A stretch of DNA of 36,129 bases, from the IMG/VR virus record IMGVR_UViG_3300032163_000060, positions 1-36,129 of that record; one strand, given 5' to 3'. Every line of letters begins with the position of its first letter. Position 1 is the first letter of the stretch. Source of the stretch: a virus. Below the pieces are notes generated by a model. That model was not told where the DNA came from. It made no database searches and was given only the letters and a program-made list of their open reading frames with translations. Of this stretch, positions 2,693 through 33,808 are shown piece by piece. The position numbers were made by a program, and so were the translations under genes.

Positions 2693-3178
2693 TTATCCTA
2701 CGGCATTGAGCAATGCGAAGCTACCGAAGAGCTTTTTTGCTGCCTTGTTGTAAGCCATCGCAGCCTCTTTCTCCGTCCCGAATCTTCCGAGGTGATGTAA
2801 TTTGTAATTTTTTCGGATGAGTGCTCTCCATTGGTGGGGACGTTTTTTGTCGCAAGTCACACCCTTGAATTTACTGGAACCGCCACGCGCACAGACATTC
2901 ATACAGTTTTGTGCAATCGTACATTTCCGTAAATTTCTGCGTCGATTATTCAGACCATCGTGGTCTTTGTGATCTCCAAATTGCCCATTTTTCAATCCAA
3001 GAATCTCACGGTGCATCATGTGAGAGATGAGGACACCATTCCGTCGTACATGCCTCACTGCATACCCTGTTCGCTTCCCCTTGCCCCTTTGGTAATGCCA
3101 CTTCCATTGTGATAGCCACTGGAAATCAGAATTGCTCACGAGTGTGAATTTGCCTTGAGTGAGAGGTATTTGCTTCAT
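2693..3178 (-). CDS. HNH homing endonuclease with C-terminal AP2 domain (copy 1)
   Basis: A 161-residue protein starting MKQIPLTQGK. It has an N-terminal beta region (FQWLSQWKWHY) and an HNH core with SHMMHREIL, then GDHKDHDGLNNRRRNLR (residues 66-82), matching the DH..g..l.NrR.NLR signature. A C-terminal AP2-like DNA-binding domain follows (FKGVTCDKK...WRALIRKNYKLHHLGRF...EAAMAYN). A six-codon longer start is possible, but TATAAT lies exactly 6 nt before this ATG and the extended form TGCTATAAT is present. The gene therefore appears to have its own leaderless promoter within the tail-fibre cluster. It is a paralogue of 33356-33808. Such free-standing genes usually spread by cutting unoccupied alleles. 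Confidence 0.9.
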   Translation of the reverse strand: MKQIPLTQGKFTLVSNSDFQWLSQWKWHYQRGKGKRTGYAVRHVRRNGVLISHMMHREILGLKNGQFGDHKDHDGLNNRRRNLRKCTIAQNCMNVCARGGSSKFKGVTCDKKRPHQWRALIRKNYKLHHLGRFGTEKEAAMAYNKAAKKLFGSFALLNAVG

Positions 3179-3184
3179 GCTAAA

Positions 3185-3190
3185 ATTATA
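3185..3190 (-). promoter_or_regulatory. -10 box TATAAT of HNH-AP2 copy 1
   Basis: TATAAT preceded by TGC (extended -10) ends 6 nt before the ATG at 3178, so transcription should begin at or next to the start codon. No clear -35 is needed for an extended -10 promoter. It gives this gene expression independent of the tail operon. Confidence 0.6.
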
Positions 3191-3202
3191 GCACAATAGC
3201 CT

Positions 3203-11988: not shown

Positions 11989-12582
11989 CTAATCCCGTAC
12001 TCGTCCCTCACGTTGTGCTTTCAAGATCGCGTCCCTATTTTTCTCGAAGAACTTGAGGTCGCTGATCTGCGCGAGGGTGTAGATCGTCTTGTCGTCCCCT
12101 GCCGGTGAGCCATCTGTGGGATTCGTCGGATGGTTCACGTCTCCTTTCTTCACTCCAGTGAGGAAGGCTCGATTTTTCACGATGTATTCGAGCTTCTTTT
12201 CCAGTGGAAGGTCTGGCACGAGTCCGCGTCGGTCTGCCGGTATGCCCTCGATCTCTGCGTCAATGACAGCTTGCAAGGACTTTTCCAGCGCGTCGGCGCG
12301 ATCCGCTTTGGGGCGGAGTTCGTCGATCACTTTTTGGTGATCTCCCCTTTTCAGGGCTTCTGCATCTTCACGGTCTTTGTCGGCTTTCACACGCTCTGCC
12401 AGTTTCGTTTCGGCATCCTTCGCTTTCTGGTTCAATTCCTTGAAGCGATCATGCTTGAAAACGTCGTCCCAAGTCTTCGGCACATCATCACCGTTTTGCG
12501 CTGGTGGGGCGGGTGGTGCAGGAGGAGCGGGAGGGGCTGGCGGCGCGGGAGGTGAAGGAGCAGGAGGAACTACGTCGGCCAT
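11989..12582 (-). CDS. Scaffolding protein
   Basis: A 197-residue, highly charged helical protein. The first 28 residues are a proline run of PPAPPAPP type. Residues 36-110 are Lys/Glu/Asp/Arg-rich (FKELNQKAKDAETKLAERV), a likely coiled coil. The C-terminal region ends with KFFEKNRDAILKAQREGRV, similar to the coat-binding end of small scaffolds. It lies directly upstream of the coat gene. TTCCCC lies 8 nt before the ATG. The proline-rich N-terminus is unusual for a scaffold. Confidence 0.85.
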   Translation of the reverse strand: MADVVPPAPSPPAPPAPPAPPAPPAPPAQNGDDVPKTWDDVFKHDRFKELNQKAKDAETKLAERVKADKDREDAEALKRGDHQKVIDELRPKADRADALEKSLQAVIDAEIEGIPADRRGLVPDLPLEKKLEYIVKNRAFLTGVKKGDVNHPTNPTDGSPAGDDKTIYTLAQISDLKFFEKNRDAILKAQREGRVRD

Positions 12583-12621
12583 AGAGAGGTGGGGAACGGA
12601 TACAACAGTGTTTTACATCCC

Positions 12622-12638
12622 TGCGGATGGTATCCGCA
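12622..12638 (-). other. Perfect 7-bp hairpin between minor capsid and scaffold genes
   Basis: TGCGGAT, loop ACC, ATCCGCA on the minus strand. No T-run follows, so it is not a standard terminator. It could protect or process the scaffold/coat mRNA or act in its expression. Only the symmetry is seen. Confidence 0.45.
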
Positions 12639-12674
12639 CGGAGCATAGTCACCAAAGGACATAGGCGCAAGGGG

Positions 12675-14177
12675 TCACGGTGTCTGTGTCGCTTTCAGAA
12701 GTGTCTCGCCCATGTTCTTGATAGGCGCATCCTCTCCCTCGAAGCTCACTTTGCGCCAGTCGATTGACGCGCCCGGAGTGATCTTCGAGCCGATGGATTC
12801 GACGAGCGAGAGATTTTCACGAGGGATGGGGTCTTTCAGCATCACAGAAAACGTCGTCTTCGGATCACTATGCAGTATCGCGCCTTCCGGCAGGTCTTCG
12901 ATGTTCAAGATCAAGTGGTGCATTCCCGTGCCGTTATAGGTGGAGGTGGAGCGGAGCGTGTCGAGGAACACTTTGCCGGAAGAGCCGTCAGGCGACACAT
13001 CGAAATCTTTGTGACCGGCACGACCATAATACGTTCCACCTAAAGCCTCGTTCGATGGTGTGACTGTGAGTTCACCCGTGTCGATGATGCTTTGCAATTC
13101 TTGATCGTCCACCCATCGGTGCATCTGGCCGAAGCGGGTGGGGAACTTGTCACCCTCTGCCATCGTCACCCACTGTGTTTTCGTCATGTCAGTCGGGTTT
13201 TGGAACCGCATGTCCTTGAACGCTTGCATTTCTTTTTTGTCAGCGAATGGAATTTCGTCACCTGCTTCCCCTCCTCCCATGTGATCCTCTTCGAGCGTTG
13301 CCGTGAAGTCGGCAGGAGAATCTTTTTGGATGCCAGAGACAATGTAGTACCCGTGGACACACCCGACGTGGAAAAGACCATCGGCCTCCGCGTCGTCGAG
13401 TGTGGGGTAGCCGGGTGTTTCGCCACCAAGCGAAATAATCTCACCCTCCCAATCAGCGCACACCTGATGGTCAGAATTCGAGTCCGTGATCTGCGCTAGG
13501 TCGAATCCGTACTCTGCCGCAGTGTTCTTCACAGCTCCACGACCACTGTTTGCGAGAATCTGTCGTGCGAGCATTTCAGAGTAGGTATCAAGCTGCCAAT
13601 TTTTCCCTCCACGATCCACGAGTGCCGTGATCCCCTGCTCTTCGATGTTCGCTTTCACCTGCTTGGCAATCTCCTCCGCGCTCGCGCCGGTGAGCTGGCC
13701 GACACCAATGAGATTTCGGATGTCCTGCTGGCCGGTGAGCTTCAAGATTTCTTCGGTTGTGGTTTTCTGCGCGACGGTGGCAACAGCTTGCGCGGATCGC
13801 TTAATGCCCGTCATGGTCTGCCCGAACTTGAGCGTGGCATCCTGCATCATCGCGCTCACAGCTTCCTGATGAATCTGGCCGAACTGCTCTGGCACGATCA
13901 GCTTGAGAGCACGGAGATTTTCTTTCGCCGACGCACCGAGCGCGAAGTAGGTATCGGGGACATGCTGCTTGATCCATTTCTGCGTTGTAGCATCGAGTCC
14001 CGCAATCACTTGATCCACCTGCGCCAGCATGGCTGTGGCTCTGTCACGGCTCCACGGAGTCGCGGCAAAATCATTCATCTGCCGGATGAGCTGGTTGTAT
14101 GCGCTCGTGTACACCTGCGCCAAGGGGTTCACCCTCCCATTCACGAACCGATTGAATGCGATGCCCATAAAACTCAT
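12675..14177 (-). CDS. Minor capsid / head morphogenesis protein fused to an unidentified C-terminal domain
   Basis: A 500-residue protein. Residues 1-290 fit the phage minor capsid family (Phage_min_cap2 / Mu gpF-like): a long helical part with AQVYTSAYNQLIRQMNDFA, LGVGQLTGASAEEIAKQV-like segments, then a metal-binding-type end HQVCADWEGEIISLGGETPGYPT with GLFHVGCVHGYY. Residues 310-500 are additional (FGQMHRWVDDQELQSIIDTG, GTYYGRAGHKDFDV, GTGMHHLILNIEDLPEGA). The 'R....L..Ii.tG.l' followed by a Gly-aromatic strand recalls ADP-ribosyltransferase-type folds, but I do not claim this. TAGGAT lies 6 nt before the ATG, with GGAGG in the spacer. Confidence 0.8.
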   Translation of the reverse strand: MSFMGIAFNRFVNGRVNPLAQVYTSAYNQLIRQMNDFAATPWSRDRATAMLAQVDQVIAGLDATTQKWIKQHVPDTYFALGASAKENLRALKLIVPEQFGQIHQEAVSAMMQDATLKFGQTMTGIKRSAQAVATVAQKTTTEEILKLTGQQDIRNLIGVGQLTGASAEEIAKQVKANIEEQGITALVDRGGKNWQLDTYSEMLARQILANSGRGAVKNTAAEYGFDLAQITDSNSDHQVCADWEGEIISLGGETPGYPTLDDAEADGLFHVGCVHGYYIVSGIQKDSPADFTATLEEDHMGGGEAGDEIPFADKKEMQAFKDMRFQNPTDMTKTQWVTMAEGDKFPTRFGQMHRWVDDQELQSIIDTGELTVTPSNEALGGTYYGRAGHKDFDVSPDGSSGKVFLDTLRSTSTYNGTGMHHLILNIEDLPEGAILHSDPKTTFSVMLKDPIPRENLSLVESIGSKITPGASIDWRKVSFEGEDAPIKNMGETLLKATQTP

Positions 14178-17506: not shown

Positions 17507-17915
17507 CGCGCTTGGGGTTAATGATCGAATCCGCGATGTCCGCGAAGGCGTTGCGCTCCCCGTCCGCGCCGATGATCGTTTTCTCGTGGTAGCGTTCACT
17601 CTGCCGCGCCTTGAGCCAGCGCAGCGCGAGCTTCCCGTCACCTGCGTTCGCCGCCTTGATGACGGTCTTTTTCATCAGGATGAATGGGAAATACTGTGCG
17701 CGACGGATGCGCTTGGCAAAGGACTTGTCACGCTTGAGTGTATTGTAGAACGTGCGCTCGCCGATCCCCGCATACGCACACGCCTCTTCGTCCGTCGCGT
17801 CTGCGCGGAAAAATTCTTCGAGGCGGTCAATGATGTTCGGGTTCTTCACCACAACCTGTGCTCGTGGGCGACTCTGCTTTTTCTTCGGAGCCGGTGATGC
17901 GATCTCAGGAGGCAT
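17481..17915 (-). CDS. Terminase small subunit
   Basis: A 144-residue DNA-recognition subunit. A basic N-terminus (APKKKQSRPRAQVVV) precedes a helix-turn-helix near residues 38-65 (DEEACAYAGIGERTFYNTL, then KRDKSFAKRI), and a helical domain with MKKTVIKAANAGDGKLALRWLK is typical of small terminases. It lies just before the large subunit. The start at 17915 overlaps the upstream modification gene by 11 nt. A longer start 28 codons upstream would lie wholly inside that gene. Confidence 0.85.
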   Translation of the reverse strand: MPPEIASPAPKKKQSRPRAQVVVKNPNIIDRLEEFFRADATDEEACAYAGIGERTFYNTLKRDKSFAKRIRRAQYFPFILMKKTVIKAANAGDGKLALRWLKARQSERYHEKTIIGADGERNAFADIADSIINPKRDAEDSDFD

Positions 17916-18579
17916 GGGCGGTTTGGAGAATTGGAGCGCGAGCCTCGGAATTGAACCGGGAACTGTCCCCGGAAGGGGACTGTGATAACGTTTCACCACT
18001 CGCGCGTGGGGGTTTTTGCCTGAGCTTTTCCACCTGCTCCCGCATCACATCGTCGAGGGGCATCAGGTAGCGGTATCGGTAGCCGCCGTCCTGCCGTGGC
18101 AGCTTGATCCCCTTGATCGTGCCGAACCGACCCCCGATGGTGCGCATGTGCCGCCACCTTCCCTCGAAAAAGAAGTTGTCCGTACTGTGCACCTTGCCGG
18201 TGAACACCCAATTTCCTGCCTGATAAATCACGCCAAGATGCCCCTGCCGATCATCCGTGAAGCTCACGATGAGCCGCAGTCCGGGGTTCGTTTTCCTGAG
18301 CATCTTGGTAGCGATGCTCACGATCTTTGTAACCGGTGTTTGGTGCGCACGGAGCGCGATGCGCGTCAGCTCACAGCCCTGCATCTGTGTGAGGCCGTAT
18401 GGCTTCATCAGCGAGCGACAGGCTCCACGTCCGAACATGACTGCACCGATGAATTTGGAATCTTCCCACACACCGAAACGAATGGCCTTGCCCGATGGCA
18501 TACACTTCGAGTAGTGCCAGTTCATCACGGCATGTTTCGCCGCGTCGCCGTCGATGGGTGCGATTTTCAGTTCCATCAT
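17905..18579 (-). CDS. mom: Mom-like DNA modification protein (GNAT-related)
   Basis: A 224-residue protein. Residues 20-140 follow the Mom family: NWHYSKCMPSGKAIRFGVWED, FIGAVMFGRGACRS, GCELTRIALRAHQTPVTKIVS, GLRLIVSFTDDRQGHLGVIYQAGNWVFTG. In phage Mu, Mom adds an acetamido/methylcarbamoyl group to adenine, so protecting phage DNA from restriction enzymes. The GNAT-like fold is expected here. The start overlaps the ParB-like stop (ATGA, first of two ATGs). The last 40 residues (basic, Ser-rich) are an addition. Its place just upstream of terminase suggests modification before packaging. Confidence 0.75.
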   Translation of the reverse strand: MMELKIAPIDGDAAKHAVMNWHYSKCMPSGKAIRFGVWEDSKFIGAVMFGRGACRSLMKPYGLTQMQGCELTRIALRAHQTPVTKIVSIATKMLRKTNPGLRLIVSFTDDRQGHLGVIYQAGNWVFTGKVHSTDNFFFEGRWRHMRTIGGRFGTIKGIKLPRQDGGYRYRYLMPLDDVMREQVEKLRQKPPRASGETLSQSPSGDSSRFNSEARAPILQTAHAS

Positions 18580-19067
18580 GGGAGTTGGAAAGAGCACCCG
18601 CATTCGGGGCATGTTGCCATCTTCTTTTCCCCCTCGTCGAGTTTGTCCTGCTCCTCTTCGGAGGGCTGGAAATTCTTGAGCATGGATTCGATCTCCGCGC
18701 TGGAAAATCCTGTCAGGTCGCGCTCTGTCTCGGGGATGGACTCGATCAGGTCGGGAAGTAGTGCCATATCGAAGTGGCCGCGTATCTTGTTCATGGCTAT
18801 GTTAAGCCATTTTTCCTTCACCTTGTTCACATCGACATAGCGCACCGGCACGGTCGCCATTGTGAGCTGCACTGCGGCTCTGTGCCGCTTGTGCCCACTG
18901 ATGATCGTACCATCCTTGTTCACAACGAGGTTCTCCAAAATGCCCTCACGCTTGATCGAGGCGAGCAGTTTTGCGTAGTCTGCTTCGTCGATGGTCTGAG
19001 GGTTATAGGTCGAGGGGTTCAGCTTCCCTGTTTCGACTTCCATGATGTCGGAGAGCTTGATGTCCAT
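18576..19067 (-). CDS. ParB/Srx-fold protein with C-terminal zinc-ribbon end
   Basis: A 163-residue protein. Residues 10-75 fit the ParB N-terminal nuclease-like domain: KLNPSTYNPQTIDEADYAKLL, SIKREGILENLVVNKDG, TIISGHKRHRAAVQL. The GHKRHRAA motif is the GxxRxxA box. Near the C-terminus KKMATCPECGCSF is half of a zinc ribbon. It overlaps the Mom-like gene by 4 nt, so the two are translated together. Phage ParB-like proteins of this type are often next to DNA-modification genes; here it may be a nuclease, ATP/CTP-dependent clamp or sequence selector. TACCCC lies 8 nt before the ATG. Confidence 0.8.
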   Translation of the reverse strand: MDIKLSDIMEVETGKLNPSTYNPQTIDEADYAKLLASIKREGILENLVVNKDGTIISGHKRHRAAVQLTMATVPVRYVDVNKVKEKWLNIAMNKIRGHFDMALLPDLIESIPETERDLTGFSSAEIESMLKNFQPSEEEQDKLDEGEKKMATCPECGCSFQLP

Positions 19068-25696: not shown

Positions 25697-25718
25697 GGGA
25701 CTGGTTGGGAAAAAATAA

Positions 25719-25747
25719 GGCGAGTATCTATTCAGACATAGTGGGAA
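25719..25747 (+). repeat. Cassette 1 inverted end, type A (3' end relative to cargo)
   Basis: Reads inward GGCGAGTATCTA, TTCAGA, CATAGTGGGAA. It matches the type A end of cassette 2 at 28 of 29 positions. The final codons and stop (ATG TCT GAA TAG on the minus strand) of the 113-residue cargo protein lie within it. Confidence 0.85.
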
Positions 25748-26069
25748 TTGTTCCTATCCTAATGGAATTGCAGAAGACCTCTGCCAGACAGTCGGCTAGT
25801 GTGCCTTTGTAGTTCTGGTAGTGCATCAGGCTTGCTACATTCCCAAGCAGCAAAGCCATCGTCCAATCTGTTCGCTTTAATATCTCGGCAATCAACTCTT
25901 CGGCAGAGGGAGCCATCAAAGCACCGAGGCCATAAAAATCATCCAGTTCGTAGTAATCAAACCTATGGTCAAACGCAAACACAGTCTTCTCGTCCCAGCC
26001 TGCTTCCTTCAATTTCTTTGCCCATTCAAGGCTTACAGTGATTGCCGATGGTGAGGGGTTATTGGTCAT
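25728..26069 (-). CDS. Cassette 1 cargo: 113-residue phage accessory protein
   Basis: Start SLEWAKKLKEAGWDEKTVFAF, acidic aromatic middle (YYELDDFYG), then APSAEELIAEILKRTDW and GTLADCLAEVFCNSIRI. This follows a common but uncharacterised phage pattern: 'sle.AkkLke.Gw....', 'APta.EL.e.LP', 'adalAe...'. It overlaps the first cargo gene by 4 nt, and its last three codons plus stop are in the inverted end. Function unknown. Confidence 0.7.
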   Translation of the reverse strand: MTNNPSPSAITVSLEWAKKLKEAGWDEKTVFAFDHRFDYYELDDFYGLGALMAPSAEELIAEILKRTDWTMALLLGNVASLMHYQNYKGTLADCLAEVFCNSIRIGTIPTMSE

Positions 26070-26254
26070 AGATATTTTTGCATGTGATTGAATACAATTC
26101 TTTCACGATCTGTTTCTGGCAATGGAACACTTAATTCCACTGTTCCAGCCGTCCTGTAATTCGCACAGTAATTTATTCCGTTCCAACAATCTGCTTTACC
26201 ACAAGCACTACAGACAATTATCTTTCTGGTCGTTGCTTTAGAAGATTTAGCCAT
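26066..26254 (-). CDS. Cassette 1 cargo: zinc-ribbon-like microprotein
   Basis: 62 residues. A basic start (MAKSSKATTRK) then IIVCSACGKADCWNGINYCANY, with four cysteines as C-x2-C-x3-C-x6-C, followed by TAGTVELSVPLPE. The ATG lies only 4 nt inside the conserved TATAGT of the type B end, so the element end probably provides its promoter. The longer frame would run out of the element into the upstream gene. Function unknown. Confidence 0.7.
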   Translation of the reverse strand: MAKSSKATTRKIIVCSACGKADCWNGINYCANYRTAGTVELSVPLPETDRERIVFNHMQKYL

Positions 26255-26255
26255 A

Positions 26256-26282
26256 GTTACTATAGGTGAGTAGATAGTTGCC
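26256..26282 (-). repeat. Cassette 1 inverted end, type B (5' end relative to cargo)
   Basis: Reads inward GGCAACTATCTACTCACC then TATAGTAAC. It matches the type B end of cassette 2 at 25 of 27 positions (differences at positions 4 and 6). It contains the -10-like TATAGT directly before the first cargo gene. Confidence 0.85.
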
Positions 26283-26291
26283 AAAAATAAA

Positions 26292-27188
26292 TCAGAATTC
26301 TTCTGCCACATAGTGCTTGCCGGATTCTTCTTCAGCAAACGCTTTTCGTTTTGCTATTTCGACATCATCCAGTTTTTTCTCCATTGCACCACGATCATTC
26401 ACGAAGCCAGCGATCTCACCATGCAACACACGAGCGTGAGCCTGTGACTTCTCAGACTTGATCCGCATGTACGAATTGAATAAAACACACTTCCTGTAAA
26501 ATTCCAAGCGGTTGTCATGTCGGAGATTTATGCGCTGATCCCATGTCTTCTTCGCGTAGTGCTCGTCGCTCACGGTTGTGCTATTCGTTAAGAATTCTTT
26601 ACCAAGCTGCTCGACTTGCGCATCATCCCATTTTTCAATTTCGTCACGTCGCTGCTGACTCGTTCGCTTTTCGATTTTTTTTTCAGGACTGCTATCTCTG
26701 TAAGAAGAATTACTACCACCAGCTACAGTACTATGGTCTGGTAGGTATGGTAGGTATGGTATGGTATGGTCTGGTGCTGTAGCTCCGCCGTGGCGTTGCT
26801 GTGGCGATGGTGCAGCATCGCTTGGATTCTTAGCTGTACCAAGTCGTTTTGCTGTGACTTGACCACCCTTCTTTCCTGCGTCAGAGTATCTTTTTCTCGA
26901 CTCCTCAGCGAAGGTAATCTCGCGGAGCACCCTATCACTTGTGAACCGATCCCCGTCCTTACGAAAGAGCCGAAGCTCAAGCATTGTGGTGAACATCTGT
27001 TCACCATTTGGAATGTCATTTGCCTCGAAAAAAAACGGCAACGCTGCAGCGTCGATATAGCCATGCCGCTCGAAACAGAAGGCAGCGAGTGCCCAAAACA
27101 TACCGATTGCCTCCCATCCATGCCGCTTACGCAGCACGACCAGTTTTTCGTCTCTGTGAGCCTGCAAATCGAAGCGAAGCCATGTCAT
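26292..27188 (-). CDS. DUF4373-like replication initiation/organiser protein
   Basis: A 298-residue protein. The first 95 residues, MTWLRFDLQAHRDEKLVVL, KRHGWEAIGMFWALAAFCFE, then YIDAAALPFF, match the N-terminal winged-helix-type domain (Lin1244/Lin1753-like) of phage replication proteins. A linker from about 120 to 180 is Pro/Ser/Gln-rich and includes PYLPYLP encoded by a DNA tandem repeat. The C-terminal half is helical and charged. Such proteins bind the origin and help load the host helicase. A lysine-rich AGKKGGQVTAKR is typical after the first domain. It neighbours the divergent intergenic region, a plausible origin. Confidence 0.7.
   Translation of the reverse strand: MTWLRFDLQAHRDEKLVVLRKRHGWEAIGMFWALAAFCFERHGYIDAAALPFFFEANDIPNGEQMFTTMLELRLFRKDGDRFTSDRVLREITFAEESRKRYSDAGKKGGQVTAKRLGTAKNPSDAAPSPQQRHGGATAPDHTIPYLPYLPDHSTVAGGSNSSYRDSSPEKKIEKRTSQQRRDEIEKWDDAQVEQLGKEFLTNSTTVSDEHYAKKTWDQRINLRHDNRLEFYRKCVLFNSYMRIKSEKSQAHARVLHGEIAGFVNDRGAMEKKLDDVEIAKRKAFAEEESGKHYVAEEF
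26732..26773. repeat. Short tandem repeat in the DUF4373 gene linker
   Basis: GGTAGGTAT and GGTAT-type units are repeated between two copies of TATGGTCTGG. They encode the linker PDHTIPYLPYLPDH. Slippage here could change linker length without loss of frame in 9-nt steps. Confidence 0.6.
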
Positions 27189-27541
27189 TTTTTTGGTGGG
27201 CAGAAATTATTGAAAAACTGATCTATATTGGCATCATGTAGCTTCCTGTTCTCATACGCACGAATGGCCATGTCACTTTGGATAGTATCGAAAAGGCAAG
27301 ATCCATTTTCTGAGAGAACATCATGGATAATCTCATTTACTTGCATGTGCAAATACTCGTGGCAATTCTCACAGAGCCAACAAAGCTCCCAACAGCAATC
27401 ACACTTCTCACGGCCATTCATTTCTTCGTAGATACGCTTTCGATCCTTCCACAGAGGGGATTCGTAGTATTCTTGAAGGTTCCTAAATCCAAGCTCACGG
27501 AGGCGGCTATTGACGATTTTCAGTTCGTAGGTTGGTAACAT
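27185..27541 (-). CDS. Small HNH-like / zinc-binding protein
   Basis: 118 residues from MLPTYELKIVNSRLRELG. LQEYYESPLWKDRKRIYEEM, then REKCDCCWELCWLCENCHEYLHMQ, has a C-x2-C ... C-x2-C-H-x3-L-H arrangement like the zinc part of HNH domains. The central catalytic His region is not typical, so activity is uncertain. It is the first gene of the minus-strand early operon. A TTGACA at about 27569-27574 and TCTAAT close to the ATG form a possible promoter with a very short leader. Confidence 0.65.
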   Translation of the reverse strand: MLPTYELKIVNSRLRELGFRNLQEYYESPLWKDRKRIYEEMNGREKCDCCWELCWLCENCHEYLHMQVNEIIHDVLSENGSCLFDTIQSDMAIRAYENRKLHDANIDQFFNNFCPPKK

Positions 27542-27547
27542 ATTATT

Positions 27548-27574
27548 AGAGAGTAAATGTAGAGATTGTGTCAA
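27548..27574 (-). promoter_or_regulatory. Candidate promoter of the minus-strand early operon
   Basis: TTGACA, about 18 nt, then TCTAAT, ending only a few bases before the ATG at 27541. If used, the transcript starts inside or at the start codon, so the true start may be leaderless or the hexamer may differ. Confidence 0.4.
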
Positions 27575-27587
27575 GAAATGTATAGAT

Positions 27588-27674
27588 TTAGTGAACTTCT
27601 GTGCAGTACAAGCCATATCCGCCACATCGACGGCAGTGCATCCCCTTGGTGCAGTCGGGGCAGCTCTGTGTCAC
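27588..27674 (-). CDS. Possible 28-residue zinc peptide
   Basis: From a GTG: TQSCPDCTKGMHCRRCGGYGLYC. Two C-x2-C knuckles in DnaJ-zinc-finger style (C..C.G...C..CGG.G) make chance unlikely, but the gene is very short and no RBS class is clear. The frame remains open upstream to an ATG at 27791, whose extra residues look non-coding. Low certainty. Confidence 0.4.
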   Translation of the reverse strand: MTQSCPDCTKGMHCRRCGGYGLYCTEVH

Positions 27675-27933
27675 TCGTACACCCCAAGGCTTCTTTGTTC
27701 CCCTCTCCTGCTTCGCACGAAGAAGTGACTCGCCCGTGTGTGCTCGGGAGAGAGGAACAGAAGAGCCGGAGGGTGCGGGTGGACGAGTCACTCAGGACAC
27801 TCTACCGAAGGTGGCCGCAGATGGTAGCAGTGTTACATGGAACGACTAGATTAAGCTGAGGAACAGTATATTTTGCTCTTTACAAGAAGTAACACAAGAG
27901 TACAGTAGTAACACTTCATTCCCCCTACCCGAT
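27675..27933. promoter_or_regulatory. Divergent intergenic control region with interleaved inverted repeats
   Basis: It holds no convincing gene. Two inverted repeats interleave: GTTCCCCTCTCC (27697-27708) with GGAGAGAGGAAC (27747-27758), one mismatch in 12, and AGTGACTCG (27724-27732) with CGAGTCACT (27784-27792), perfect. GTAACAC occurs at 27889-27895 and 27908-27914 and in reverse at 27830-27836, in the manner of an operator. It lies between the two early operons and near the replication gene, so it may hold the early promoters and possibly the origin. Confidence 0.5.
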
Positions 27934-28200
27934 ATGCCTAACAAGGCAATCACACCACCGGCAGACTGGTTTCAGAAAAGACAAGAAACGCTCCACGAAA
28001 ATCGTGAGGGCGGTGTTATCGTTCCCCCTCTCCCAACAAAGGAGGAGTGGGAAGCCTATGAAGCAGTCCGTGAAAGCGGGATCACAAACATGTTCTCCCT
28101 CGGCACAGTTTCGAAACACTCAGGACTCGACAAAGAGACGATCACGAGAATTATGAAGACGTACTCACAGTGCAAAGCACTCTACCGACCCACTTTGTGA
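27934..28200 (+). CDS. DUF5049-like small protein
   Basis: 88 residues. The C-terminal half, YEAVRESGITNMFSLGTVSKHSGLDKETITRIM, follows the DUF5049 pattern '..iR.sG.tNMfd...v', probably a small helical DNA- or protein-binding unit. It is the first gene of the plus-strand early operon. TTCCCCC lies 8 nt before the ATG. Its stop overlaps the ArdC start (GTGA). Confidence 0.7.
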   Translation: MPNKAITPPADWFQKRQETLHENREGGVIVPPLPTKEEWEAYEAVRESGITNMFSLGTVSKHSGLDKETITRIMKTYSQCKALYRPTL

Positions 28201-29096
28201 GCACCACCCGCACAGCATCGGCTAAGTCCATCTATCAGATCGTCACAGACGAAATCATCAAGAAACTCGATGCCGGAACAGTCCCGTGGAGGCAGCCGTG
28301 GGTCGGCGGTGAGATGCCGCAGAACTTCATCACGAAGCGTCCCTACGGAGGCATCAATGCGTTCCTCCTTTGGTGCAGCGAGTACCCGCATCCCTACTGG
28401 CTCACCTTCAATCAGTGTGTGAAGGCCGGAGGCTCGGTCAAGAAAGGGGAAAAGGGAACACTCGTCGTATTTTGGAAAAAGTTTCCGATGGTGAAAGTGA
28501 CGAATGAAAAAACGGGCGAGGAAGAGGACAAAGTGGGGTTCATGCTCAGATACTTCAAGGTGTTCAATGTGAGCCAATGCGACGGCCTCACGATCCCCGT
28601 CAAGGAAGCGCGGAAGACGATCAGCCCCATCGTGAAGTGCGACGCACTGATGATCGGCTACACGGACAGGCCGGAAGTCGCGGTCGGTGGACAGCGAGCC
28701 ACCTACAACACGAAGACGGACGTGGTGAACATCCCCGAACAAAAGAGCTTCCACAAAGACGAGCAGTTCTACGCCACGCTCTTCCATGAGTTCACGCACT
28801 CGACCGGAGCCGCTAAGAGGCTGAACAGAAAAGGCGTAGCCGGTGAGCACAAGATTTTCGGAAGCGAGGACTACAGCAAGGAGGAACTGATCGCGGAGTT
28901 CGGCAGCGCGTTCCTCTGTGCACATGCAGGGATCATGCCCACGACACTCGCAGACTCCGCCAGCTACATTGACCACTGGAAAAAAGAGCTACAGGCCGAC
29001 AGCCGCCTCCTCGTGAGCGCGGCCAGCCAAGCACAAAAAGCGGCAAACTATATTCTCCAAATTCCTTCCCTATCCTCTAATGGACAAGCAGCCTAA
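28197..29096 (+). CDS. ardC: ArdC-like antirestriction protein (ssDNA-binding plus metalloprotease)
   Basis: 299 residues from a GTG overlapping the upstream stop. Residues 5-130 form the ArdC N-terminal ssDNA-binding domain (IYQIVTDEIIKKLDAGTVPW, RQPW, then RPYGGINAFLLW and KKGEKGTLVVFWKK). Residues 165-295 form a zincin metalloprotease: TLFHEFTHSTG gives HExxH at about 197-201, and SKEELIAEFGSAFL supplies the third ligand Glu. Plasmid ArdC binds incoming ssDNA and blocks restriction. In this phage it probably acts early against host defence, together with Mom. The GTG nine codons upstream is a less likely start. Confidence 0.85.
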   Translation: MSTTRTASAKSIYQIVTDEIIKKLDAGTVPWRQPWVGGEMPQNFITKRPYGGINAFLLWCSEYPHPYWLTFNQCVKAGGSVKKGEKGTLVVFWKKFPMVKVTNEKTGEEEDKVGFMLRYFKVFNVSQCDGLTIPVKEARKTISPIVKCDALMIGYTDRPEVAVGGQRATYNTKTDVVNIPEQKSFHKDEQFYATLFHEFTHSTGAAKRLNRKGVAGEHKIFGSEDYSKEELIAEFGSAFLCAHAGIMPTTLADSASYIDHWKKELQADSRLLVSAASQAQKAANYILQIPSLSSNGQAA

Positions 29097-29391
29097 CGAA
29101 ATCACTGTCTGCAATCTCGAAGTCGTACTGATGCCACAAGGTGAATTGATCTGCATGGGCAAGACGGTCGGCTGGTTCAAGGACTTCCAAAAATATCTTT
29201 CCATCATGCCACGCAAAGAGCCTCTGCCTGAGCCGGACTTGTGCCACGCTTTAGGGGGCGAGGGGAAGGGAAACTGTGGAAGGATCGCTACACACAACTG
29301 CGACAACTGCGGCCTCCTCTGCTGTGATGAGTGCTCCCGTGCCATTGGTGTCGGTGGTGACGGGGAAAACGGTTGTACTTCCTGCTGCTAA
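29080..29391 (+). CDS. Cys-rich zinc-binding protein
   Basis: 103 residues. An N-terminal domain (NEITVCNLEVVLMPQGELICM) with beta character, and a C-terminal Cys cluster: LCHALGG, GNCGR, HNCDNCGLLCCDECSRAIG and CTSCC, of B-box/treble-clef style. It overlaps the ArdC gene by 17 nt in another frame. TTCCC lies 9 nt before the ATG, supporting this start. Function unknown. Confidence 0.65.
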   Translation: MDKQPNEITVCNLEVVLMPQGELICMGKTVGWFKDFQKYLSIMPRKEPLPEPDLCHALGGEGKGNCGRIATHNCDNCGLLCCDECSRAIGVGGDGENGCTSCC

Positions 29392-29393
29392 CC

Positions 29394-29570
29394 ATGAACG
29401 CCTACCAGATCACTGCGCTCGTCATTCTCTTCCTCCTCTCCTGCCTGTTCGCGCAAATCCTCTACAAGAAGGACGGGCAGCATGACTACGAAGCCACAGG
29501 GTATGGCCTCTTCATCCTCCTCTGGCTCGTGGCAATCATCATCGCCCTTGTCTTCTTTGTGAAAAAATAG
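29394..29570 (+). CDS. Small two-pass membrane protein
   Basis: 58 residues from MNAYQITALVILFLLSCLFA. First span at residues 5-22, a charged loop (YKKDGQHDYEATG), second span at 33-54 ending in KK. It starts 2 nt after the upstream stop. The frame could begin seven codons earlier, but that part overlaps the Cys-rich gene. Function unknown. Confidence 0.6.
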   Translation: MNAYQITALVILFLLSCLFAQILYKKDGQHDYEATGYGLFILLWLVAIIIALVFFVKK

Positions 29571-29571
29571 C

Positions 29572-29691
29572 ATGACATACTACTCCAAAGCACTGGCTAG
29601 AAGAAAGAGACGAATGGTCACAAAGTTACTTCCATACTGCGTTACTACTTGGTGTATAATCGGCTCGATCTTTTTATTTCTTTCTTTCTAA
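29572..29691 (+). CDS. Small basic single-pass membrane peptide
   Basis: 39 residues: MTYYSKALARRKRRMVTKLL is strongly basic, then YCVTTWCIIGSIFLFLSF forms a membrane span. It begins 1 nt after the previous stop and ends 3 nt before the RecT gene, filling the gap exactly; this is the main evidence. The TATAAT at 29655-29660 inside it could also be a promoter for recT. Confidence 0.5.
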   Translation: MTYYSKALARRKRRMVTKLLPYCVTTWCIIGSIFLFLSF

Positions 29692-29694
29692 CCC

Positions 29695-30771
29695 ATGACA
29701 GAGAAACAAGTCACCGTCGCGCAGAAAACCACAGCCGCGCTGATGAACTGGAACGATCCGGCGATGCAGGTGCAGATTCGCAAAGCCTACGGAGGCAGCC
29801 TGAACGATCAGGAGTGGGGACTGTTCCTCGGCCTCGGCATCGCAACCGGCCTCAATCCATTCCTCAGAGAGATTTGGGCACTCAAGTACGGCAACAACCC
29901 CGCCACCGTCTTCATCGGCAGGGACGGCTACCGAAGGAGTGCGCAGAATCATCCCGACTACGAATACCACTACGCGGCAGCCCTCTACAGCAAGGATTTG
30001 TTCAAGATCGTGAACGGGGAGGTGCAGCACGAGTTTAACATGGCGGATCGCGGGGCACTCACAGCTTCGTACTGTGTCGTGAAGAGGAAGAGTGCGGCGC
30101 GTCCCGCCATCACCACGATCAAGACGAGCGAGTACATGCAGCCACATGGCGTGTGGAAGACGAAGCCAGAGACGATGAGCAACAAGGTCGCGGAAGCGCA
30201 GGGGCTTCGTGGTTCCTTTCAGGAGCTATTCGCAGGGACGTATGAGGAGAGCGAGAATTGGGAGAAGCCAGCAGTACCCGCCACTCCATCCCCGAAGCCA
30301 GCGGACATGTACGGCGGCAACATCGTGGAAGCGCAGGTCGTGGACACTCCACCCCCAGAATCGGCCATAAACAAGGCCGCCAGAGAGACGATGGAGGAAT
30401 ACGGGGATATTCCCTCCGCGCCTCCTGCGCCACCCGTGAAAGCCCATCCAATGCCTCAGCCAGCACCCCGCGCACCGGAGGCACAGCGACAGCCACCCGA
30501 GGCAGCTATCCCCGCAGGGAAGATCAGGACGGATCAGACGAGGAAGCTCTTTGCGGTCTGGGGCGAGTATACGAAGATCACACGCGTCAGCCCGAAGGAC
30601 AGCCAACCGGCGCGAAAGAAAATGATGCAAGAATTGTTCGGAGTAGACAGCTCCGTGAAGCTCAATGAGGAGCAAGCGGACACACTGATCGCGCACATCG
30701 AAAAGCTCACGAAGGCAACGCCCGAAGGCGAGTACCAGACAGCCGAAGACCTTGGAATGCAGCAGATGTAA
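29695..30771 (+). CDS. recT: RecT/Bet-family single-strand annealing recombinase
   Basis: 358 residues. Residues 20-190 follow the RecT/Bet family: QEWGLFLGLGIATGLNPFLREIW, TVFIGRDGYRRSAQNHPDY, then KTKPETMSNKVAEAQGLRGSF. It anneals complementary ssDNA for recombination and repair, and it may help form concatemers. A Pro/Ala-rich linker (230-280) leads to a small C-terminal helical domain (RTDQTRKLFAVWGEYTKIT) often found in phage RecT proteins. A TATAAT with a short leader lies 35 nt before the ATG. No exonuclease partner was found. Confidence 0.8.
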   Translation: MTEKQVTVAQKTTAALMNWNDPAMQVQIRKAYGGSLNDQEWGLFLGLGIATGLNPFLREIWALKYGNNPATVFIGRDGYRRSAQNHPDYEYHYAAALYSKDLFKIVNGEVQHEFNMADRGALTASYCVVKRKSAARPAITTIKTSEYMQPHGVWKTKPETMSNKVAEAQGLRGSFQELFAGTYEESENWEKPAVPATPSPKPADMYGGNIVEAQVVDTPPPESAINKAARETMEEYGDIPSAPPAPPVKAHPMPQPAPRAPEAQRQPPEAAIPAGKIRTDQTRKLFAVWGEYTKITRVSPKDSQPARKKMMQELFGVDSSVKLNEEQADTLIAHIEKLTKATPEGEYQTAEDLGMQQM

Positions 30772-30793
30772 ACTTTTCTTCCCCCTCCTTTTT

Positions 30794-31015
30794 ATGCAAA
30801 TTCAGTGTCCCTCCTGCCGCTCCTACAAGGTAACAACGGATCGCATAGCACTCGCGGCACTCGGGCTGTTCTTCCTCCTTGGAGGATCACTCTTGGGCTT
30901 CCTCGTGATCCCTCTCCTTGGCATTCCCGTCGGCATCTTCATCCTCATTGTGGCGGCACTCAGTAAGCCAAAAAGTGTCTCCTGCCGAGCCTGTCATTGT
31001 AAATTCCGATTGTAA
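30794..31015 (+). CDS. Zinc-ribbon membrane protein
   Basis: 73 residues. An N-terminal knuckle CPSCRSYKV, two membrane spans (LAALGLFFLLGGSLLGFLVI and IPVGIFILIVAAL), and a C-terminal knuckle SCRACHCKF. The two C-x2-C pairs would meet on the same face. The arrangement is known in small bacterial membrane proteins of unknown role. TTCCCCC lies 8 nt before this ATG and excludes the longer frame. Confidence 0.65.
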   Translation: MQIQCPSCRSYKVTTDRIALAALGLFFLLGGSLLGFLVIPLLGIPVGIFILIVAALSKPKSVSCRACHCKFRL

Positions 31016-31085
31016 ACCGGCTGTAAACACTTTACAGACACAGAGACAAGCAAGTAACATCACTACCATCTTCCCCATCCACCAC
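31016..31085 (+). promoter_or_regulatory. Short intergenic stretch with TGTAAAC repeats
   Basis: TGTAAAC occurs at 31010-31016 and 31022-31028, and TTTACAG is the reverse of the same string at 31031-31037, forming a small dyad. This is possibly an operator within the operon; no gene is seen here. Confidence 0.35.
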
Positions 31086-31646
31086 ATGAGTATCACAAGA
31101 GAAGAGGCATTGCGTGACATCGCAAAATGGAAAAAGGCAATCGAAGAGGAGGACAGCCTCCGCTTCGATGTGATGCAGACAAAGGACTACAAGGCCGTGG
31201 AGGAAGATGCGGCGCAGTTACAGCACACCATCGGGGAGCTTGGGAACGAGCTGGCGGCCACGACACAGAGGAAGCTCGAAATGCTGCAAGAGGTTCCCGA
31301 CAGCAGGGAGCAGCTACAAGTTACGAAGCTGAATCTCATTGACCTGATGAATCTCGAAGGAGTCGAGGGCTACACCGAGGACTGGATCAGCGTGTCGGGA
31401 AAATTCAGCGAGAAGCGCACAGTGAATGCCCACAAATTGCTCGAAACTCTTGGTGGTGACATCACAGAGTTCTGCAAAATCGCCATCCCCTCACAAAAGG
31501 CTGTGAAAGATTACGCGCAGGAGGTGGGCAACAAAGCGATCCTCACCTGTATCCGGCTAGAGAGCAGAGAGCTCACTGACATAGAAATCACCCTCCTAAT
31601 CGAGCGACCAATAGGCCGTCCCCCTATTCAGTTCCCCGAAACATAA
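31086..31646 (+). CDS. Helical early protein (Siphovirus Gp157-like)
   Basis: 186 residues from MSITREEALRDIAKW. Two long coiled-coil helices (residues 10-75, Lys/Glu/Asp-rich) are followed by LNLIDLMNLEGVEGYTEDW, a turn that resembles the Gp157 'ki...l..Eg...f' region, then a compact C-terminal part. The start is set by TTCCCC 9 nt upstream. Gp157-type proteins lie in phage recombination blocks next to RecT/Bet, as here. Function unclear. Confidence 0.55.
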   Translation: MSITREEALRDIAKWKKAIEEEDSLRFDVMQTKDYKAVEEDAAQLQHTIGELGNELAATTQRKLEMLQEVPDSREQLQVTKLNLIDLMNLEGVEGYTEDWISVSGKFSEKRTVNAHKLLETLGGDITEFCKIAIPSQKAVKDYAQEVGNKAILTCIRLESRELTDIEITLLIERPIGRPPIQFPET

Positions 31647-31868
31647 ATGCCAACCCCGCATCCCCTCACAACGAAGGCAAAGAAATTACTGGAATGTGAG
31701 CGCGGCATTTTCTACTGCACATTTTGTGGCTTCGAAAACGGCGTGCCCGATGAGACGTATGACAACATTGAGGGTGAGGGATACAAGTGTGATTTTGGAT
31801 GCGGTGACAAAGCAAAATACTGGCAATCATCCTACATGGATTCTGGTTCTGGCCTTTTCTCCAAATAA
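31647..31868 (+). CDS. Small zinc-ribbon protein
   Basis: 73 residues. LLECERGIFYCTFCGFENG (C-x2-C) and YKCDFGCGDKAKYW (C-x3-C) form a single zinc ribbon with Tyr/Trp-rich surroundings. TTCCCC lies 9 nt before the ATG within the end of the upstream gene. Function unknown. Confidence 0.65.
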   Translation: MPTPHPLTTKAKKLLECERGIFYCTFCGFENGVPDETYDNIEGEGYKCDFGCGDKAKYWQSSYMDSGSGLFSK

Positions 31869-31869
31869 T

Positions 31870-32202
31870 ATGAACGAATGCCGCCCCATGCCCGTCGATC
31901 CTCTTTTCGACCCTGAGTCGAGGGCGCAGAATCCCGACATGTATGAGCCTGTCTGCGTGACTTGTGGCAGCAAACTCGTGAGGCATGAGGACTTCACCGA
32001 CCTACCTTCGCGCAAGGAGTATCACCTGAGTGGCATGTGCCAAAAATATCAGGACGTTGTGTTCACGGAAGGCGAGGATGAGCCTGTGATCTCCCCACCC
32101 CAGCCACCGGATGATGATTTCGAGGATCGTGAGCGTGAGAAGGAACGGCAGGAGCGCGGGTATGAGGATCACCTACTCAGTGAGGCGCAGAATTACAGAT
32201 AG
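31870..32202 (+). CDS. Cys-rich acidic protein
   Basis: 110 residues from MNECRPMPVDPLFD. CVTCGSKLVRHEDFTDLPSR then YHLSGMCQKYQDVVF follows a phage microprotein pattern in which 'SGlCq.CqD..F' is usual; here the second Cys of the last knuckle is Tyr, so the zinc site looks degenerate. The acidic C-terminal tail is disordered. The stop TAG at 32200-32202 is the first part of the cassette 2 target duplication. Confidence 0.65.
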   Translation: MNECRPMPVDPLFDPESRAQNPDMYEPVCVTCGSKLVRHEDFTDLPSRKEYHLSGMCQKYQDVVFTEGEDEPVISPPQPPDDDFEDREREKERQERGYEDHLLSEAQNYR

Positions 32203-32207
32203 CATTA

Positions 32208-32234
32208 GGCGAGTATCTACTCACCTATAGTAAC
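32208..32234 (+). repeat. Cassette 2 inverted end, type B (5' end relative to cargo)
   Basis: Reads inward GGCGAGTATCTACTCACC then TATAGTAAC. It contains TATAGT, and the TTCCCC motif of the first cargo gene follows 3 nt later. The direct repeat TAGCATTA lies just outside at 32200-32207. Confidence 0.85.
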
Positions 32235-32251
32235 CCCTTCCCCATTAATCT

Positions 32252-32608
32252 ATGACTAATGATAATCCGTATGAGGTTCGTAACCCATTCATCGAAGCTC
32301 TACAGAGAGAGGTTGCCAAAACGATAGGGAAACAGTTGCCAGAGGGATGGAGATTCGCCCTGTTCATGTTCAAGTACTCCGCAGCGGACAGTTTCTACAT
32401 TAGCAGCGGTGACCGTGAAGGGGTCATGCACTCAATCCGACAGTGGCTAGAGCGCATGGAGGGAAACGATGAGTATGGTAAGTTCTATGACGCCGTGGCG
32501 AGAGTTACAGGTGTCGTGGTACAGAAGTTCGGAGAGAATGATGATACGAAGATTATTTCTACTTATCTTTTACCCAAACCCTCCCATGATGGTCCAAGAC
32601 ACTCGTGA
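32252..32608 (+). CDS. Cassette 2 cargo: 118-residue phage accessory protein
   Basis: FIEALQREVAKTIGKQLPEG, then WRFALFMFKYSAADSFYISS, GDREGVMHSIRQWLERM. The pattern 'lP.gw.FaL..f......yis..dR..v...i..wl' is a small alpha/beta unit seen in many phage accessory genes, with no assigned function. TTCCCC lies 8 nt before the ATG inside the cassette. No similarity to cassette 1 cargo. Confidence 0.7.
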   Translation: MTNDNPYEVRNPFIEALQREVAKTIGKQLPEGWRFALFMFKYSAADSFYISSGDREGVMHSIRQWLERMEGNDEYGKFYDAVARVTGVVVQKFGENDDTKIISTYLLPKPSHDGPRHS

Positions 32609-32768
32609 TAGCTTCAATGCTCTTGCTCTTACTAATGAGAAACTAAAGAACATCCTCACAGACGAAGAGGAGGAACAGCGACAGCAGTACAAGAAAATGG
32701 GAGCAGATGAATGTTACAGATTGCCGCTGGGCAAGATGCCTCCTAAGCCCCCATTTTGGGAACGATGA
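32586..32768 (+). CDS. Cassette 2 cargo: small acidic/helical protein
   Basis: 59-60 residues from MMVQDTRDSFNALALTNEK. A charged helix (LTDEEEEQRQQYKKM) is followed by a Pro-rich end (KMPPKPPFWER). It overlaps the first cargo gene by 23 nt, and the first of two ATGs is preceded by CCCTCCC. It stops just before the type A end. Function unknown. Confidence 0.6.
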   Translation: MMVQDTRDSFNALALTNEKLKNILTDEEEEQRQQYKKMGADECYRLPLGKMPPKPPFWER

Positions 32769-32774
32769 TTTTAC

Positions 32775-32803
32775 TTCCCACTATATCTGAATAGATACTC
32801 GCC
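32775..32803 (-). repeat. Cassette 2 inverted end, type A (3' end relative to cargo)
   Basis: Reads inward (minus strand) GGCGAGTATCTA, TTCAGA, TATAGTGGGAA. The direct repeat TAGCATTA lies just outside at 32804-32811. Confidence 0.85.
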
Positions 32804-32810
32804 TAGCATT

Positions 32811-32924
32811 ATGAGAAAGAAGAAATGCAAAAATTGTGGCAAGCTCATCAATCAATCAAGGGACATTGATGACTATAGGTGGCTTTGCCGCCGCTGTCAT
32901 GTACACTTAGATCGCAAGCTCTAA
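32811..32924 (+). CDS. 37-residue zinc-ribbon peptide
   Basis: MRKKKCKNCGKLINQ, then WLCRRCHVHLDRKL: two C-x2-C knuckles and a basic character, a typical minimal zinc ribbon. The A of its ATG is the last base of the cassette 2 target duplication, so the cassette was inserted immediately before it and displaced any signal upstream. No motif of either start class is left. Confidence 0.65.
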   Translation: MRKKKCKNCGKLINQSRDIDDYRWLCRRCHVHLDRKL

Positions 32925-33355: not shown

Positions 33356-33808
33356 TTACAAGACATTCAATCGTGCAAATTCACCAAAAATCTCTTTTGC
33401 TTTATTGTTGTATGCTCGCGCGGCATCCTTCATTTTTTCGAATGAGCCGATGTACATTGATTTCTGGTTTTTCTTTATGCTCGCAGTCCATCTTTTCCCC
33501 TCAAGGTACACACCTTTATATCGGCCATTCTTCACATGACAATTCATCTGGTTTTGTGAATTGCTGCTTTTCCGCAGATTACTTCGCCGATTGTTCAGGC
33601 AATTTCCATCACGATGCTCACCGTAGATTTCAGGATTTTTCAATTCGAGAATCTCACGGTGCATCCTCAGAATACGCTTTTTTGGCTTCCACACAGAGCG
33701 AGCGGCATACCCATCCTTCGTGTAGTACCACTTCCACTGTGAAAGCCATACAAAATCCGCATCATCGACGAGTGCGAACCTGCCCTGTGTAAGCCGTATT
33801 TTCTTCAT
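33356..33808 (-). CDS. HNH homing endonuclease with AP2 domain (copy 2)
   Basis: 150 residues. A clear paralogue of 2693-3178: MKKIRLTQGRFALVDDADF, WLSQWKWYY, RMHREIL, then GEHRDGNCLNNRRSNLR in place of the GDHKDHDG variant, and the AP2 end (RYKGVYLEGKRWTASIKKN, AARAYNNKAKEIFGEFARLN). The first His of the core is kept, but the D-H pair differs (EHRDG). TATACT lies 7 nt before the ATG. It is the last gene of the minus-strand late series. Confidence 0.9.
   Translation of the reverse strand: MKKIRLTQGRFALVDDADFVWLSQWKWYYTKDGYAARSVWKPKKRILRMHREILELKNPEIYGEHRDGNCLNNRRSNLRKSSNSQNQMNCHVKNGRYKGVYLEGKRWTASIKKNQKSMYIGSFEKMKDAARAYNNKAKEIFGEFARLNVL

Follow-up and report, generated by a model that had tools for sequence, protein, structure and literature searches.

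The category of mobile insertion cassettes (MICs) dates back to MIC231 of Bacillus cereus, and its members are described as being mobilised in trans (PMC3913671; PMC3129680). Elements of the IS1595 family usually generate 8-bp duplications and carry a single transposase gene with a DDE_Tnp_IS1595 domain (PMC8101967); ISApl4, a member of this family, prefers A/T-rich targets, mostly between genes (PMC12561309). Phage genomes contain a mosaic of accessory genes, and it is often unclear how these were acquired. Virulent phages reportedly very seldom encode a transposase (PMC8136500), and a cassette without one escapes searches based on that enzyme. Our literature search, which covered open-licence papers, yielded neither an account of phage-borne MICs nor one of IS1595 elements in Patescibacteria. 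Here, we describe two units in a phage genome that are best explained as trans-mobilised MICs belonging to a subgroup of IS1595 (a reading to which we give a probability of roughly 0.9). The kind of element is thus a known one; the phage carrier, the IS1595 family, the paired occurrence, and the minimal ends would be new.

Two flanked cassettes in a tailed-phage genome

The window (the whole stretch of DNA analysed, 36,129 bp) is a complete-looking tailed-phage genome with a 126-bp terminal repeat, encoding portal, head, terminase, and tape-measure proteins, as well as a RecT-like annealing protein (29695–30771). The host is probably a member of the Peregrinibacteria, judging from the kin of an IS1595 transposase described below. 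A search for close phage relatives returned two at 53–54% identity for RecT and a single partial, remote one for the terminase; INPHARED terminases were at most 24% identical to that of the window phage. None of these was close enough to reveal an empty site. A Mom-like DNA-modification gene adjoins a ParB-like gene (17905–19067), and the phage may thereby modify its own DNA. There are also two HNH endonuclease genes of one family (2693–3196 and 33356–33808), which have a 31-nt stretch in common at 94% and are both probably homing-type genes.

Cassette A (25719–26282, 564 bp) and cassette B (32208–32803, 596 bp) are each bounded by matching inverted ends and flanked by perfect 8-bp direct repeats. 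The features are as follows.

25711–25718, no strand: target-site duplication AAAAATAA, left of A; identical to 26283–26290
25719–25747, plus strand: A downstream-type terminal repeat, 29 bp; 28/29 identical to 32775–32803
25728–26069, minus strand: cargo gene A1, 113 aa (ORF); stop codon inside the terminal repeat
26066–26254, minus strand: cargo gene A2, 62 aa, cysteine-rich (translation); 4-base overlap with A1
26256–26282, minus strand: A upstream-type terminal repeat, 27 bp; 21/21 core identity with 32208–32234
26283–26290, no strand: target-site duplication AAAAATAA, right of A
32200–32207, no strand: target-site duplication TAGCATTA, left of B; contains the TAG stop of the upstream gene
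32208–32234, plus strand: B upstream-type terminal repeat, 27 bp
32252–32608, plus strand: cargo gene B1, 118 aa (ORF); TTCCCC leader 8 nt before the ATG
32586–32768, plus strand: cargo gene B2, 60 aa (translation); overlaps the end of B1
32775–32803, minus strand: B downstream-type terminal repeat, 29 bp
32804–32811, no strand: target-site duplication TAGCATTA, right of B; final base doubles as the A of the following ATG

The boundaries of both units proved to be exactly those given by the first-pass annotation, and the perfect direct repeats that it placed outside them (AAAAATAA and TAGCATTA) were likewise recovered. Its proposal of one shared kind of end held in that all four ends fit GGCNANTATCTAYTCANNYATAGT with 0 mismatches each, but there are really two end types: one of 27 bp upstream of the cargo and one of 29 bp downstream. 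This placing is the same in A and B, although the two cassettes point opposite ways in the genome. The upstream end, GGC(A/G)A(C/G)TATCTACTCACCTATAGTAAC, is 25/27 identical between A and B, with an internal core identical at 21/21 positions, and the downstream end, GGCGAGTATCTATTCAGA(C/T)ATAGTGGGAA, is 28/29 identical; the interiors are unrelated, such that A and B have only their ends in common. Elsewhere in the window, GGCNANTATCTAYTCANNYATAGT was absent at up to 3 mismatches, and it did not occur in 100 shuffles. A de novo pair finder that was blind to the end sequence returned cassettes A and B as the only pairs in the 36-kb window; its requirements were GG...CC tips, an inverted match at 14/24 positions or more, and an 8-bp duplication without mismatches. 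In block-shuffled windows, 0.1 pairs were obtained at 14/24; at 18/24, which both real pairs attain, there were none.

Short shared sequences around phage genes might also be promoters, terminators, or recombination sites bordering ordinary genes: the TATAGT that they contain is similar to a −10 box, they directly adjoin the starts and stops of genes, and the RecT-like annealing protein could exchange genes between short identical ends. Promoters, however, would not leave two units each flanked by an exact 8-bp duplication, the downstream ends sit after genes, and the same ends surround an IS1595 transposase in another contig (see below). We therefore regard this explanation as extremely improbable.

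Cargo genes and insertion sites

The genes are tightly packed in both cassettes. In A, the start of A2 lies directly inside the upstream end, A1 and A2 overlap, and the stop codon of A1 falls in the downstream end; in B, a 17-nt leader is followed by two overlapping genes that finish 6 nt ahead of the downstream end. As the first-pass annotation had it, the cargoes are unrelated two-gene sets lacking a transposase: each cassette holds two ORFs, with no match to a transposase, and no transposase or trace of transposase sequence was found in cassette A, cassette B, or the rest of the window. Comparison of A1, A2, and B1 with Pfam and PHROG families gave nothing above noise, and A1 and B1 had no relatives in viral contigs or INPHARED. 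Structure prediction was of too low confidence to support a fold search for either B1 (pLDDT 63) or A1 (pLDDT 48). One match to A1 in a host genome was set aside as too weak to use. G+C content is 44 and 47% in the cassettes vs. 54%, and the neighbourhood is likewise at 45–47%, for which reason low cassette G+C was dropped as evidence.

The leader ahead of B1 includes a TTCCCC hexamer that is found 8–11 nt 5' of the ATG at 13 gene starts of the window phage, at 8–9 nt in 11 of the 13 (27919+, 30779+, 31071+, 31632+, 32238+, 32928+, 34648−, 25259−, 19237−, 12596−, 11958−, 10987−, and 8022−); it constitutes a pyrimidine-rich, non-Shine–Dalgarno start leader.

Both insertions are intergenic, with the neighbouring genes intact on both sides. 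At site B, the eight duplicated bases extend from the TAG stop of the preceding gene to the first base of the following ATG, and in the reconstructed empty site (...GATAGCATTATGAGAAAG...) the stop TAG and the start ATG are 4 nt apart. Both cassettes point the same way as the flanking genes, and thus expression of the cargo by read-through from phage operons is plausible.

A full element with matching ends and its chromosomal relatives

The first-pass annotation had predicted the existence of a complete element that has these ends and encodes a DDE transposase, and such an element was found in the IMG/VR scan. The inner motif occurred at 20 loci and GGCGANTATCTAYTCA at 78, and true ends, with a partner, were present in one other contig, IMGVR_UViG_3300011437_000018 (L019). 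The remaining unpaired loci, which have no partner end, were taken as chance matches, as was L006/L018, which resembles the upstream end but lacks both the GG and a partner; a wider end pattern returned from IMG/VR only L019 plus six unpaired matches.

The L019 element (12091–13720, 1630 bp) has ends with 0 and 2 mismatches, and encodes a transposase and a DNA-methyltransferase-like protein. The first 16 nt of one end are identical to the downstream end of the cassettes, and the upstream end differs from theirs (TTGACA vs. CTCACC). The transposase belongs to IS1595 (PF12762, DDE_Tnp_IS1595, E = 6e-39; NCBIfam NF033547, E = 7.6e-62, above cut-off), one of the families that the first-pass annotation had named for their 8-bp duplications and GG tips. 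The target duplication of the L019 element itself is imperfect (6/8; TAAAAATT/TAAAATTA), but its chromosomal relatives have exact ones (see below). The L019 phage and the window phage have two small genes in common at 38% identity, one of which directly adjoins the L019 element. In an otherwise different 44-kb phage (IMGVR_UViG_3300012001_000001; L104), a 144-bp piece (3002–3145) has 97% DNA identity to the L019 transposase gene and is a relic of exchange between phages.

A search with the L019 transposase led to Ca. Peregrinibacteria Greene1014_49 (L105), and the survey of chromosomes covered 353 genomes of the class containing Ca. Peregrinibacteria. In these, the end takes the form GGCGAYTATCCCTTGAC...TAG(T/G); among the matches listed, the end motif was found at 44 places, vs. 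a handful of matches for the reversed control, and single-end matches in host genomes were left out of the cassette count. Exact 8-bp duplications flank L105 (2708 bp), L157 (2747 bp), L158 (3197 bp), and L159 (2063 bp), whose transposases are 54–57% identical to that of L019 and which carry further genes, such as those for STAND/AAA-type ATPases and an acetyltransferase. Five more elements (L176, L177, L180, L182, and L183) likewise have exact 8-bp duplications and GG-tipped inverted repeats. Within L158 (1998–5194), a 3.2-kb IS1595 element of 41% G+C in surroundings of 63% G+C, the cargo includes a STAND-type ATPase and a GNAT acetyltransferase, which could possibly serve in defence.

The DDE_Tnp_IS1595 domain was also detected in the transposases of L105 (1.8e-39) and of a further viral locus, L103 (2e-41), and in the tree the two viral enzymes, from L019 and L103, cluster with host-class elements in a supported clade of 12 (99/99). 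All IS1595 groups except IS1016 have an N-terminal zinc-ribbon domain; in the transposases examined here, four cysteines (C34, C37, C54, and C56) are invariant, with Pfam zinc-ribbon models scoring below cut-off.

Non-autonomous forms are present in the same chromosomes. MITE-like copies of 130–180 bp with the same end type were identified (L160, L250, L263, L264, and L266), some with 7/8 or 8/8 duplications, and several copies occur in the genomes G174, G176, and G335. A 1628-bp chromosomal unit with IS1595-type ends (L255, 2953–4580 of G187 C33) has neither a transposase nor an intact target duplication, and carries a type II restriction enzyme and a methyltransferase (PADLOC, 4e-10 and 6e-60); it adjoins a multicopper-oxidase-like gene. 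Given L255 and the MITE-like copies, non-autonomous units, including cargo-bearing ones, seem not to be peculiar to the window phage.

The existence of MITE-like and degenerate copies in the host class, together with the transposase relic in L104, would fit another origin for the cassettes, namely as autonomous insertion sequences that lost the transposase after insertion in the phage, with the ORFs being leftover or native. This is highly improbable, given that the window, both cassettes included, holds no trace of a transposase, that intact, overlapping genes take up each cassette right to its ends, and that both the ends and the duplications are undecayed.

Proposed mobilisation in trans and comparison with known systems

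Both units combine IS-like inverted repeats, passenger genes without a transposase, and a perfect 8-bp duplication, three of the features by which MICs are recognised. They are IS1595 derivatives rather than insertion sequences, because they have no transposase; they are not MITEs, because two intact ORFs fill each; and they are not integron cassettes, because 8-bp duplications are present. For MICs of this kind, we propose that the transposase gene of an IS1595-family element was replaced by two small co-oriented passenger genes, with the ends (approximately 27 and 29 bp) serving as terminal recognition sequences. These ends would be recognised by an L019-type transposase acting in trans, its gene residing on the host chromosome, in a prophage, or in a co-infecting phage; insertion of the cassette by this enzyme would generate the 8-bp target duplication. 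The L019 transposase is a candidate for mobilisation of A and B; where the window ends read TATCTA, the chromosomal elements more commonly have TATCCC, and thus we infer the exact cognate transposase from one element, L019. The swap of cargo for the transposase gene might have occurred by RecT-like annealing between the short shared ends.

A related alternative is that only the ends move by transposition, and that the phage RecT, through homologous annealing between resident ends, swaps one cargo for another in situ. The combination of 27- and 29-bp ends with wholly different cargo, and the RecT-like gene in the window, are consistent with such exchange; however, the target duplications differ at the two sites, so that each site would also need its own transposition, and direct evidence for exchange is lacking. 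We consider it unlikely.

The proposal in the first-pass annotation that these are non-autonomous cargo cassettes moved by an outside transposase gained from the discovery of L019; the part of that proposal concerning spread among phages did not, as no other viral contig yielded either cargo, and no second copy of either was found. That the cassettes may spread accessory genes among phages is suggested by two insertions in one genome. It is possible, though less likely than not, that phages of Peregrinibacteria share a pool of minimal cassettes, with two universal ends of approximately 27–29 bp around exchangeable accessory genes, moved by phage-borne IS1595 transposases. If true, such a pool would parallel integron cassettes, with transposition as its basis, and would supply phages with accessory genes. 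In the one genome described here, four accessory genes are attributable to the two cassettes, whose exact edges provide a search motif (GGCRASTATCTAYTCANNYATAGT, in inverted pairs) as well as a testable partner transposase. The survey also brings to light, in the genome-reduced Peregrinibacteria, a subgroup of IS1595 that comprises cargo-bearing elements, MITEs, and a restriction–modification cassette.

Compared with described systems, the cassettes most resemble MIC231 of B. cereus and the qnrD mic of Proteeae plasmids in having IS ends, a passenger gene in place of the transposase, and a target duplication (PMC3913671; PMC3129680); mobilisation in trans has been described for MIC231A1. Unlike these, the window units belong to the IS1595 family, are carried by a phage genome, have shared ends of only 27 and 29 bp, and comprise two MICs with different two-gene cargo in one 36-kb genome. 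With the IS1595 family and its passenger-gene forms (Siguier et al. 2009, cited in PMC3129680 and PMC8101967), they share 8-bp duplications, GG-tipped inverted repeats, an IS1595 transposase in autonomous relatives, and passenger genes, although IS1595 insertion sequences encode a transposase and the window units do not. As for ISApl4, the insertions lie between genes, in A/T-rich targets. The MITEs L160, L250, L263, and L266 are likewise non-autonomous and have the same end type, but are 130–180 bp long and without genes, whereas the window units carry intact genes. Finally, the likeness to integron gene cassettes drawn in the first-pass annotation is only an analogy. Both are mobile, small, and limited to one or two genes, but the resemblance is functional only: integron cassettes have attC sites, are inserted by an integrase through site-specific recombination at attI/attC, and lack the 8-bp duplications seen here, and the known category to which the window units correspond is the mobile insertion cassette.
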